Shown piece after piece: positions 10,366-63,056 of a DNA stretch of 64,000 bases. A program made the translations under genes and the position numbers. Under the pieces are notes generated by a model that was given only the letters and a program-made list of their open reading frames with translations, ran no database searches and had not been told where the DNA came from. The stretch spans positions 186,001 through 250,000 of the forward strand of contig NZ_JANFNH010000005.1 of NCBI RefSeq assembly GCF_024436055.1, in the 5' to 3' direction. The first letter of the stretch is position 1. Each line of letters opens with the position of its first letter. This stretch comes from Streptantibioticus rubrisoli. Lineage in GTDB: Bacteria > Actinomycetota > Actinomycetes > Streptomycetales > Streptomycetaceae.

Positions 10366-10848
10366 TCGGGGACTCCAGGAATGCTTGGTGTCTCGTCCGC
10401 TTTGTCCGAGACGTGTGTGGGGCGTCGCTTGGCTGTCACCGTGCGCCCACGAAGCTCGCGATACGCCTTGGGTGTAACCGCTTATCCAGTCACCTGAAGT
10501 GATCTGTGCCCTTCGTCAGGCAGGCGGCAGCAGCCATCGACAACTCGACCTGGTTACGGTACGCGCGGCTACGCCATTCGGTCAAACCAGCTCCGCCAGG
10601 CGGCCGACGCGCCGACCCCGACCCACTGAAGCACGGCCCGCTGACACATGGCACATTTGTACACACCCTGTGGACAACGACTTGAACCACAGACGGGGCG
10701 CTGACTACCGTGGCTGGACTCAGGGATCTCCGCCGAACCAACCCGACATACTTCCCGCACTTCCCGAGAACCACACCTTCGTGGGACACGTCGGCGCCCT
10801 CTCGATTCCACCGAGCGAGCCCACCCACCGAGCGAGAGAGCGTGCACT
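10366..10848. other. rpmH-dnaA divergent intergenic region
   Basis: 483 bases without a gene. It holds the promoters for rpmH (leftward) and dnaA (rightward) and two facing DnaA boxes listed separately. A candidate dnaA promoter is TTGAAC (10682-10687), 18 bases, TACCGT (10706-10711), leaving a leader of roughly 130 bases. I see no other gene or RNA. Confidence 0.7.
10657..10677. promoter_or_regulatory. Two facing DnaA boxes upstream of dnaA
   Basis: TTGTACACA at 10657-10665 and TGTGGACAA (reverse) at 10669-10677, 3 bases apart, ending 4 bases before the candidate -35 element. A pair of DnaA boxes in the dnaA promoter is known to mediate autorepression in Streptomyces. Confidence 0.8.
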
Positions 10849-12630
10849 GTGGCTGATGTAACTGCCGATCTAGCCGCAGTGTGGCCTCGGGTGCTCGAGC
10901 AGCTCCTCGCCGAGGGCCAGGGCGTCGAGGCCAAGGACCAGCGCTGGCTCAAGGTGTGCCAGGCGCTGGCGCTGGTGGCCGACACCGCGCTACTGGCCGC
11001 GCCCAACGAGTACGCCAAGGGCGTACTGGAGGGCCGCCTGCTGCCGTTGATCACCGAGGGCCTCAGCCGCGAGTTCGGCCGCCCGATCCGCATCGCGATC
11101 ACCGTCGACGCCAGCACGGACTCGGCGGCCCCGCAGGCCCCGCAGACCCCGCCCGCTCAGACCGCGCCCGGCAACCCGGCGCCGTACGCCGAGCAGCGCG
11201 GGCAGTGGGACGAGTACGGGCGCCCCGGCGGCGACGGCCCGATGATCCGCCGCGCCTACCCCGACTACCCCACCGGCCACGAGCCCACCGGCGGTTGGCC
11301 GCGCCCGGCCGCAGTGAGCGGCCCCGACGCGTACGGCCACGCGCAGGGCCACGGTCGCCCCCAGGACGACGGTCACTCCCGCACCGAGAACTGGCAGCAG
11401 CACGGCGGCTTCGCCGAGCGCGACCCGTACCCCCCGGTCCCGCAGCGGGACTACGGCCAGCAGCAGCCCGGCTACCAGCAGCGGCAGCCCACCGAGCGAC
11501 CCGTCGGCGGCCGCCCGCAGGACCCGCTGCCCGCCCCGCCCAGCGGCGCCCCCGGACCGCTCGCCGCCCAGCCGGCGCCCGCCACCGGACCCGGTGAGCC
11601 GACGGCCCGGCTGAACCCCAAGTACCTCTTCGACACCTTCGTCATCGGCGCCTCCAACCGCTTCGCGCACGCCGCGGCGGTCGCGGTCGCCGAAGCCCCG
11701 GCCAAGGCGTACAACCCGTTGTTCATCTACGGCGAGTCCGGCCTGGGCAAGACCCATCTGCTGCACGCGATCGGGCACTACGCCCGCAGCCTCTACCCGG
11801 GCACCCGGGTGCGGTACGTCAGCTCCGAGGAGTTCACCAACGAGTTCATCAACTCCATCCGCGACGGCAAGGGCGACGCGTTCCGCAAGCGCTACCGCGA
11901 GATGGACATCCTGCTGGTCGACGACATCCAGTTCCTGGCGAGCAAGGAGTCGACGCAGGAGGAGTTCTTCCACACCTTCAACACCCTGCACAACGCCAAC
12001 AAGCAGATCGTGCTGTCCTCCGACCGGCCGCCCAAGCAGCTGGTGACCCTGGAGGACCGGCTGCGCAACCGCTTCGAGTGGGGACTGATCACCGACGTCC
12101 AGCCGCCCGAGCTGGAGACGCGGATCGCGATCCTGCGCAAGAAGGCGGTCCAGGAACAGCTCAACGCCCCTCCGGAAGTGCTGGAGTTCATCGCCTCCCG
12201 GATCTCGCGCAACATCCGCGAGTTGGAGGGCGCGCTGATCCGGGTGACGGCGTTCGCCAGCCTCAACCGGCAGCCGGTGGACCTGCAGTTGACCGAGATC
12301 GTCCTCAAGGACCTGATCCCGGGCGGGGAGGACGTGGTTCCGGAGATCACCGGGAACGCGATCATGGCGGAGACGGCCGCCTACTTCGGGCTGACCGTCG
12401 AGGACCTGTGCGGCTCGTCGCGCAGCCGGGTCCTGGTCACCGCACGGCAGATCGCCATGTACCTGTGCCGGGAGCTAACTGACCTGTCGCTGCCGAAGAT
12501 TGGCGCGCTGTTCGGCGGGCGCGACCACACCACGGTGATGCACGCGGACCGCAAGATCCGGGCGCTGATGGCGGAACGGCGGTCCATCTTCAACCAGGTG
12601 ACCGAGCTGACCAACCGCATCAAGTCCTGA
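10849..12630 (+). CDS. dnaA: Chromosomal replication initiator protein DnaA
   Basis: 593 residues. Domain I covers about 1-85 ([14 protein letters not shown]). Domain II is an unusually long Pro/Gln/Tyr/Gly-rich linker, about 85-250, as is normal for Streptomyces. The AAA+ domain carries Walker [12 protein letters not shown] (about 294-304) and Walker [12 protein letters not shown] (about 350). Domain IV (about 500-593) has the DnaA-box-binding helix-turn-helix ending [18 protein letters not shown] start after GCGAGAGAG. It binds the boxes in the adjoining oriC to open the duplex. Confidence 0.97.
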
Positions 12631-34810: not shown

Positions 34811-35662
34811 ATGACCATGGACCAGGCGGTCTGCTGCTACCGGCATCCGGACCGCGAGACGGGCGTGCGCTGCGCCCGCTGCAACCGTCCGATCTGCCCG
34901 GAGTGCATGGTCAGCGCTTCGGTCGGGTTCCAGTGCCCGGAGTGCATAAGCGCTGGCCACCAGTCGGCAGCGCGGCCGCGCACCGTCGCGGGCGGCACGG
35001 TCGTCGCCAACCCGCGGCTGGTCACCATGATCCTGATCGGGATCAACCTCGCGGTGTTCCTCGCCGTACAGGCGAACAAGACGCTGGTCGAGGACCTGGC
35101 GCTGGTCGGTGCCTGGCCACCGCCGCCGTTCCACGCCACGATCGGCGTCGCCGACGGCCAGTACTACCGGTTGCTGACCGCGGTCTTCCTGCACCAGCAG
35201 CTCATCCACATCGGCTTCAACATGCTGTCGCTGTGGTGGATCGGCCCCGGGCTGGAGGTCGCCCTCGGCCGGGCGCGCTATCTGACGCTGTACCTGCTGT
35301 CCGGGCTGGGCGGCAGCGCTTTGTCGTTCCTGGTCGCCGGGGCGGGGTCGACCTCGCTGGGCGCTTCCGGGGCGATCTTCGGGCTGCTCGGCGCGACGTT
35401 CGTGCTGATGCGGCGGCTCAACTACGATCTGCGGCCGATCGTCGCGATCATCGTGCTGAACCTGCTGTTCACCTTCGCCCAGTCGCAGACCATCGACTGG
35501 CGCGCGCACGTCGGCGGCCTGGTGACGGGCACGGTGATCGCCTACGGGATGGTGCACGCCCCGCGCCAGCGGCGAGCCCTGGTGCAGTGGGGGACGTGTG
35601 CCGCGATGGGCCTGGTGATCGTGGCCGTGGTGGCCGCCGGAGTGATCCGGATCAACGGCTGA
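34811..35662 (+). CDS. Rhomboid-family intramembrane serine protease
   Basis: 283 residues (ATG 34811; ATG 34817 is also possible). The N-terminus is a B-box-like zinc module (CCYRHPDRETGVRCARCNRP, then CPECMVS and FQCPEC). Six or seven membrane helices follow. The catalytic serine is in LGASGAIFGLLGA and the partner histidine in WRAHVGGLVTG; HIGFNMLSLWWIG is the usual loop. It cleaves membrane proteins within the bilayer; its substrate is unknown. The stop codon lies inside an 11-bp tandem repeat array. Confidence 0.93.
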   Translation: MTMDQAVCCYRHPDRETGVRCARCNRPICPECMVSASVGFQCPECISAGHQSAARPRTVAGGTVVANPRLVTMILIGINLAVFLAVQANKTLVEDLALVGAWPPPPFHATIGVADGQYYRLLTAVFLHQQLIHIGFNMLSLWWIGPGLEVALGRARYLTLYLLSGLGGSALSFLVAGAGSTSLGASGAIFGLLGATFVLMRRLNYDLRPIVAIIVLNLLFTFAQSQTIDWRAHVGGLVTGTVIAYGMVHAPRQRRALVQWGTCAAMGLVIVAVVAAGVIRING

Positions 35663-35691
35663 TCAACCGCTAATCAACCGCTGATCAACAG
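35648..35691 (+). repeat. 11-bp tandem repeat running through the rhomboid stop codon
   Basis: Units CGGATCAACGG, CTGATCAACCG, CTAATCAACCG, CTGATCAACAG. The first is within the last codons, the second contains the TGA stop, and the rest are intergenic. Confidence 0.8.
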
Positions 35692-35979
35692 TTGAGGACG
35701 ACGTTCATCGCACTTATCCACAGAGCGTGCGAGCGCCTGTGCATCGCGTGTGCGACGCCCACGTGGCCTGGCCGCATATACGTTTCACCAGCAAGATCGC
35801 GACAGGCTGGGCACTGCTTGGGCGGTGGTTCGCCGGTCACACCGGTGTCAACGGGCGAGAGGTTATCCACAGATCTTCCGACCTTTTCCCCACTGTGGAT
35901 TCCCCTGTGGATAACTCTGTGGACAGTCAGGGCGAGAGGTTGACATGGAGGCCCCGCAGGAGGGCCTCCCGCGGGACCG
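35663..35979. other. Gene-free segment carrying a DnaA-box cluster
   Basis: 317 bases between convergent rhomboid and crgA genes. Five DnaA boxes: TTATCCACA at 35714-35722 and 35863-35871 (forward, perfect), TGTGGATAA at 35906-35914 (reverse, perfect), TGTGGATTC at 35894-35902 and TGTGGACAG at 35918-35926 (reverse, one mismatch class). Four lie within 64 bases. DnaA-box clusters outside oriC that titrate DnaA are known in S. coelicolor (named H24 and D78); I cannot say whether this corresponds to one of them. Confidence 0.8.
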
Positions 35980-36237
35980 TTACTTCCACTGCGTCGAGAC
36001 GACGAACCCCGCCGCGATGAAGCCGAAGCCGACCACGATGTTCCAGTTGCCCCACGCCTCGATCGGCAGGTTCCCCGTGGTCACGTAGAAGACGACGATC
36101 CACGCCAGACCGATCAGGAACAGCGCCAGCATCAGCGGGGCGACCCAGCGTCGGCCCGTGTTCAGCTTGAACGTGGCGGTGGTCTTCTCCGGCGGCGGCG
36201 TGAAGTCGGCCTTCTTGCGGATCCGTGACTTCGGCAC
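35980..36237 (-). CDS. crgA: Cell division inhibitor CrgA
   Basis: 85 residues from GTG at 36237 (behind CAGGAGAG, product start [16 protein letters not shown]). Two membrane helices (about 35-55, [22 protein letters not shown], and 65-83, [18 protein letters not shown]) joined by [11 protein letters not shown], the standard CrgA layout. In Streptomyces CrgA inhibits FtsZ ring formation and coordinates septation. The gene is next to the pknB locus, as in other actinomycetes. Confidence 0.95.
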
Positions 36238-36374
36238 GAGGGGCTCTCCTGTCGATGCGCTGCGGGACACGCAGGGCGGATGCGGTGTGTTTCGCCAGGC
36301 GGGGAGCGTGGTGTGCCGCCCCCGGGCGTCCGTTAGCGTAGTGCTTCCGCGGGTGCGAAGGAGATAAGGGTCCC

Positions 36375-62879: not shown

Positions 62880-63056
62880 TCAATGGTGGATCCGGCGACG
62901 TAGGGTGTCAAGGCTGATCCAGGGCTGTGGAAAAGCCCCACCCCGGGGCCGCACCGCCCTGTGGAAAACCTCTACGGCCTGTCCTCCCGGCGGCGGCATG
63001 AGTACCGTTCCGGTGCGAACGGCCGGAACGAAGAGACCGACGAGACGGGGAACGAC

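Follow-up and report, generated by a model that had tools for sequence, protein, structure and literature searches.

Why does a short gene-free gap in the genome of Streptantibioticus rubrisoli hold several binding sites (boxes) for the replication initiator DnaA, away from the replication origin, oriC? The gap spans 317 bp (positions 35663–35979) of the 64,000-nucleotide stretch analysed here (contig NZ_JANFNH010000005.1, positions 186,001–250,000; the window) and lies between a rhomboid-family protease gene and the convergent cell-division gene crgA. We consider it probable that the gap harbours an old origin-proximal cis-element at which DnaA assembles, tuning the amount of active DnaA that is available for oriC.

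The box TTATCCACA has three exact copies in the window, all inside this gap: box B (35906–35914, − strand), box D (35863–35871, + strand) and the distal box E near the rhomboid stop codon (35714–35722, + strand). Shuffled windows had a mean of 0.07 exact copies and none had three; the whole genome of 7.26 Mb has 34. Box A (35918–35926, − strand) is CTGTCCACA, with one mismatch, and is replaced by TTGTCCACA in many relatives. Two further boxes are weak: B′ (35894–35902, − strand), GAATCCACA, has two mismatches and is an extra 12-bp unit in this lineage; C (35884–35892, + strand), which was read from the sequence as TTTTCCCCA, is also referred to below as core box 1. On the − strand, B′, B and A follow one another head to tail every 12 bp, a period also reported by Tandem Repeats Finder at 35893–35923; C faces B′ at a spacing of 10 bp. 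The palindromic C/B′ pair of DnaA-like boxes is followed by the strong box B.

An earlier sequence-only reading of this DNA had described five DnaA boxes, three of them perfect, in a gene-free 317-bp segment 22 kb from oriC. This description was accurate, with a measured distance of ∼22.6 kb from the dnaA–dnaN gap (dnaA open reading frame at 10849–12630); its fifth box must be GAATCCACA, and the weak inverted TTTTCCCCA was overlooked. The proposed preference of oriC for TTGTCCACA was correct in part, the oriC gap containing one exact TTGTCCACA, mixed one-mismatch boxes and no exact TTATCCACA. With boxes in excess of chance and a position close to oriC, the element fits the class of origin-proximal DnaA-box clusters outside oriC.

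Conservation and geometry of the boxes

Box conservation in relatives had been set beforehand as a check on the sequence-only reading, and it was passed decisively. The loci came from ∼40 families in the class Actinomycetes, and at each the 250 bp past the crgA stop codon were scored. An exact box was present in 126 of 146 loci (296 boxes in total), as against 3, 0, 3 and 5 exact boxes in four control stretches taken from these loci. Head-to-tail pairs with a 12/13-bp spacing numbered 95 in the stretches downstream of crgA and 0, 0, 0 and 1 in the controls; for facing pairs with a 10/11-bp spacing, the numbers were 76 and 0. When the expectation was obtained by Markov resampling, head-to-tail pairs were found at 96 of 140 loci (0.02 expected) and facing pairs at 72 of 140 (0.00 expected). 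The element accompanies crgA even where the rhomboid gene is not adjacent, and the distance between crgA and dnaA was 12–45 kb in most of the complete genomes checked, rising to ∼170 kb in a few.

The geometry was determined outside Streptomycetaceae, at 47 loci that represent 27 lineages, some of them not in the class. The recurrent layout starts with a palindrome, ATnACACnnGTGTnAT (hereafter P), and continues with three boxes, of which the first is weak and the third is strong and inverted. The start of box 1 lies 15–17 bp beyond that of P, and 23 bp separate box 1 from box 3 at 40 of the 47 loci. Box 1 is mostly weak (TCATCCCCA type) and box 3 is strong; the weak CCCCA form, which is the form of box C that recurs across lineages, is retained as box 1 in 15 of the 27. 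The middle box points one way at 27 loci and the opposite way at 20. At loci from other classes of the phylum, the order of P, box, facing box and box is identical. Judged from these comparisons, the layout is present behind crgA in most of the sampled Actinomycetes lineages and in several outside the class.

Within Streptomycetaceae, boxes were found in the crgA–rhomboid gap at every crgA locus examined. Of 150 genomes, 51 carried the strict three-box pattern TTGTCCACA–3 bp–TTATCCACA–TGTGGATAA, each a single time, and all 30 of its matches that were fetched as loci fell in this gap. The most conserved columns in an alignment of 27 sequences were boxes B, D and E, the B–D interval, P, the block around 35781–35799 (CGTTTCACCAGCAAGATCG, + strand; partly conserved across the family) and CCTGTGCA (35736–35743, + strand), which lies within a weak TTGTGCACA box in many relatives. 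Boxes B and D are near-invariant, and box E is TTATCCACA or TTGTCCACA in most members examined. The number of boxes spaced by 12 bp is variable, with a maximum of five at one locus (L124). The family layout is reversed relative to crgA and lengthened by these boxes; the start of box D is 27 bp from the start of P at 16 loci, compared with a P-to-box distance of 16 bp elsewhere, a difference of about one helical turn. In Streptomyces (L216–L220 and other loci), the TGATCTTGC block gives way to a mid-gap inverted repeat, CCCCCTG...CAGGGGG.

The sequence-only reading had also pointed to an 11-bp tandem repeat flanking the boxes. The repeat exists (35650–35689, + strand, 3.6 copies by Tandem Repeats Finder) and crosses the rhomboid stop codon. 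Two close relatives (L086 and L087), with 92% rhomboid identity and the same rhomboid coding end, keep box E and the other boxes and have no tandem repeat. The repeat therefore lies outside the element and is, judging by these relatives, a local duplication.

The palindrome and the mycobacterial site

In the window, P is GTCACACCGGTGTCAA (35836–35851). It was identified by reading aligned gaps and was scored out of 12. Beside the boxes, P scores 9–12 in ∼30 families, compared with ∼8 in shuffles, and it stands at a fixed distance from the boxes. It is also nearly unique in each genome: in several genomes of 4–7.5 Mb, the sole exact copy is at crgA. The sequence TTGACRCCGGTGTGAC is present as a single copy in each of 14 of 61 Streptomycetaceae genomes, adjoining crgA in every one of the 14 for which the position of crgA is known. 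A looser P core occurs at five places in the genome of the window. P is the presumed site of a second protein, probably dimeric, that cooperates with DnaA. The suggestion in the sequence-only reading that the array recruits more proteins is thus plausible through the conserved palindrome, and not through the tandem repeat.

Several known proteins were considered as the P binder. WhiA recognizes GACAC, BldD recognizes TnAC-N5-GTnA and MtrA recognizes direct repeats; all three were rejected, as these motifs misfit some of the lineages. HigA2 of Mycobacterium tuberculosis binds an oligonucleotide from this region with micromolar affinity, and the authors assign its site to the DnaA site (PMC11205783); a role as the binder throughout the phylum is unlikely. 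Palindromes resembling P were also seen upstream of a whiB2/whmD-type gene in many actinobacteria (L300, L301, L302; L303–L327), with a best score of 10–12 out of 12 in ∼18 of 25 genomes, where shuffles usually peak at 9–10. A P-binding protein may regulate whiB too.

A locus with the same position has been studied experimentally in mycobacteria. DnaA was bound at five main places in M. tuberculosis and Mycobacterium smegmatis, including Rv0010c–Rv0011c (Hicks et al. 2020, PMC7738170). This top-five site was found by in vitro DNA affinity purification sequencing (IDAP-seq) in M. tuberculosis and by chromatin immunoprecipitation sequencing (ChIP-seq) in M. smegmatis, and was confirmed by electrophoretic mobility shift assay (PMC7738170). 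Convergent clinical mutations hit two DnaA-like boxes that form a palindrome 65 bp ahead of Rv0010c, and the reconstructed single-nucleotide polymorphisms gave longer cells and low-level isoniazid tolerance, resembling dnaA variants; the authors compare the length phenotype of the dnaA alleles with that of hypomorphs (PMC7738170). They saw no obvious correspondence in other species (PMC7738170).

The Rv0010c–Rv0011c site lies directly 3′ of crgA (Rv0011c) and near oriC, as does the element in the window, and in both a palindrome of two DnaA-like boxes is followed by a strong box. In our Mycobacterium-like loci, the gap contains P, TCATCCCCA-T-TGGGGATAG and then TGTGGATAA, 67 bp before the next ATG. 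There are also differences: the next gene is the co-directional Rv0010c rather than a convergent rhomboid gene, and the module in the window is flipped, with more and stronger boxes, one of which is distal, at a distance of 140 bp. On the basis of the shared position behind crgA and the shared layout, we propose that the window site is the counterpart of the mycobacterial site. The comparison across actinobacteria is what supplies this putative missing counterpart in other species.

Function of the element and rival explanations

Streptomyces coelicolor reportedly has clusters of high-affinity DnaA boxes outside oriC but near it (Smulczyk-Krawczyszyn et al. 2006), and the element in the window is alike in having high-affinity boxes near oriC in a member of Streptomycetaceae. 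We take crgA of S. coelicolor to be SCO3854 on cosmid H69, and the window cluster is probably the H69 cluster. Deletion phenotypes are said to have been described for the D78 cluster and not for H69. A second cluster outside oriC in the S. rubrisoli genome, with three exact and three near boxes, lies between serS and pheA (G000:C7:26889–27218; L271:2390–2718); P is absent from it, and it is probably the counterpart of D78. Exact TTATCCACA pairs were also seen at G000:C87:8141–8164 (L273) and G000:C58:25243–25284 (L272), one just after lpqB and the other just upstream of a D-aminopeptidase gene. Elsewhere in the window, TTGTACACA and TTGTCCACA face each other at 10657–10677, ∼170 bp before the dnaA open reading frame, consistent with DnaA autoregulation, and two same-strand TTTTCCACA boxes lie 34 bp apart at 62926–62968.

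In Escherichia coli, IHF and Fis assist DnaA at datA and at the DnaA-reactivating sequence DARS2; sites for IHF and Fis were not recognized in the element. Like datA, which limits initiation in E. coli, the element is a non-coding DnaA-box cluster. However, the essential datA boxes 2, 3 and 7 share one direction (PMC5742627), whereas the window boxes are opposed (C, D and E on the + strand, A and B on the − strand). In DARS, box I is opposite to II and III (PMC5742627), as C (+) is to B′ (−) and B (−). We measured the DARS1 core as I(+)-14-II(−)-12-III(−); here too, a box pair 12 bp apart faces one opposed box, and the topology of the element is closer to DARS1 than to datA. The opposed spacing is 14 bp in DARS1, compared with 10/11 bp in the actinobacterial loci (second spacing 12/13 bp). 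As the 14-bp spacing is unmatched, the element was not classed as DARS.

The best reading is that the element is analogous to datA, DARS and the S. coelicolor clusters. The position near oriC means that it would be duplicated early after initiation; the duplicated element would then capture or modify DnaA, limiting or retiming the next initiation, and a dimeric palindrome protein would probably cooperate, in a role like that of IHF and Fis at datA and DARS2.

How DnaA would be affected can be read in two ways, each of which we regard as rather unlikely taken alone. In passive titration, high-affinity sites act as a sponge whose copy number doubles shortly after initiation, leaving less DnaA free; the layout and the palindrome would then be incidental. 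This reading fits the three perfect boxes close to oriC and the concentration of DnaA boxes near oriC in E. coli (PMC12371093); clusters near oriC in S. coelicolor and Bacillus subtilis repress untimely initiation, according to the passages in PMC4585315 and PMC5742627 that cite this work. The sequence-only reading had suggested an S. coelicolor-like titration cluster; conservation strongly supports the class, and titration is a candidate mechanism. Yet a sponge requires neither the exact spacing nor the weak box 1 described above, and most families have only two or three boxes, few compared with the sites genome-wide. An ordered DnaA complex accounts better than a passive sponge for the fixed spacing and the conservation of the weak box. 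Alternatively, opposed boxes could hold ADP-DnaA head to head and, with the palindrome protein, promote nucleotide exchange, raising ATP-DnaA as DARS does. The 27 loci with one (+) box and then two (−) boxes 12/13 bp apart resemble the DARS1 core, and mutants of the M. tuberculosis site phenocopy the dnaA alleles that were likened to hypomorphs. Against this are the opposed spacing of 10/11 bp, the 20 loci with a reversed middle box and the result of our scan of the mutH–ygdR region, in which no E. coli DARS2 core of 14/12 geometry was found; the phenocopy is also compatible with excess DnaA. On the sign of the effect, the cited S. coelicolor work supports repression, and the phenocopy would fit either direction.

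Other explanations do not involve the supply of DnaA. The rhomboid gene (34811–35662, + strand; PF01694, E 8e-35) and crgA (35980–36240, − strand; PF06781, E 9e-29) converge on the gap, so DnaA could act there as a roadblock or terminator, or as a regulator of a transcript. The opposed boxes and an 8-bp perfect inverted repeat (GGAGGCCC/GGGCCTCC, 35947–35969) near the crgA stop codon suit such a transcriptional device, which we nonetheless judge improbable: the next gene is co-directional in Mycobacterium-like genomes, the module persists beside different neighbours, no promoter-like or terminator-like match was found in the gap, and the expression of Rv0010c and Rv0011c was unchanged in dnaA mutants (PMC7738170). 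Only the low box count of a single genome speaks for a chance cluster or composition artefact; this reading is contradicted by the shuffles, the Markov resampling, the control stretches and the 23-bp geometry, is refuted by conservation and can be dismissed. An RNA element was rejected, with no Rfam match up to E 1, as was a secondary origin, the gap having a GC content of 54–66% without an AT-rich stretch that could serve as an unwinding element.

Some observations weigh against a DnaA-tuning element. It is missing from families f5, f24, f29, f34, f40 and f41 and genus g19, among others, and is therefore dispensable; P was not found in family f17, and in Streptomycetaceae the module faces the other way relative to crgA than it does in most other families. 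In M. tuberculosis, the dnaA variants left the initiation rate unchanged (PMC7738170), so an effect on replication would be conjectural even there. For S. rubrisoli, we infer DnaA binding, a protein on P and an effect on initiation.

DnaA clusters outside oriC were already known; what appears to be new is the palindrome, the composite layout with its fixed geometry and the distribution through the phylum, and neither these nor DnaA sites linked to crgA were found in the open-access literature searched. Since the same type of palindrome lies upstream of whiB, one factor may couple initiation to division. We tentatively extend this, as a possibility somewhat short of an even chance, to an element for DnaA control present in most of the phylum, in which a dedicated palindrome protein and DnaA would form one complex beside crgA and the whiB palindrome would couple initiation to the division programme. 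Post-initiation restraint of DnaA is poorly known in actinobacteria, and a non-coding element whose geometry is fixed in the majority of the class lineages sampled, and also outside the class, should matter to the cell cycle. Through it, a titration-type cluster of Streptomyces would be linked to an M. tuberculosis locus on which selection acts in patients, and the near-unique palindrome provides a starting point in the search for a new DnaA partner. If the proposal is true, the element would be the actinobacterial counterpart of datA and DARS, and would account for the cryptic M. tuberculosis site.
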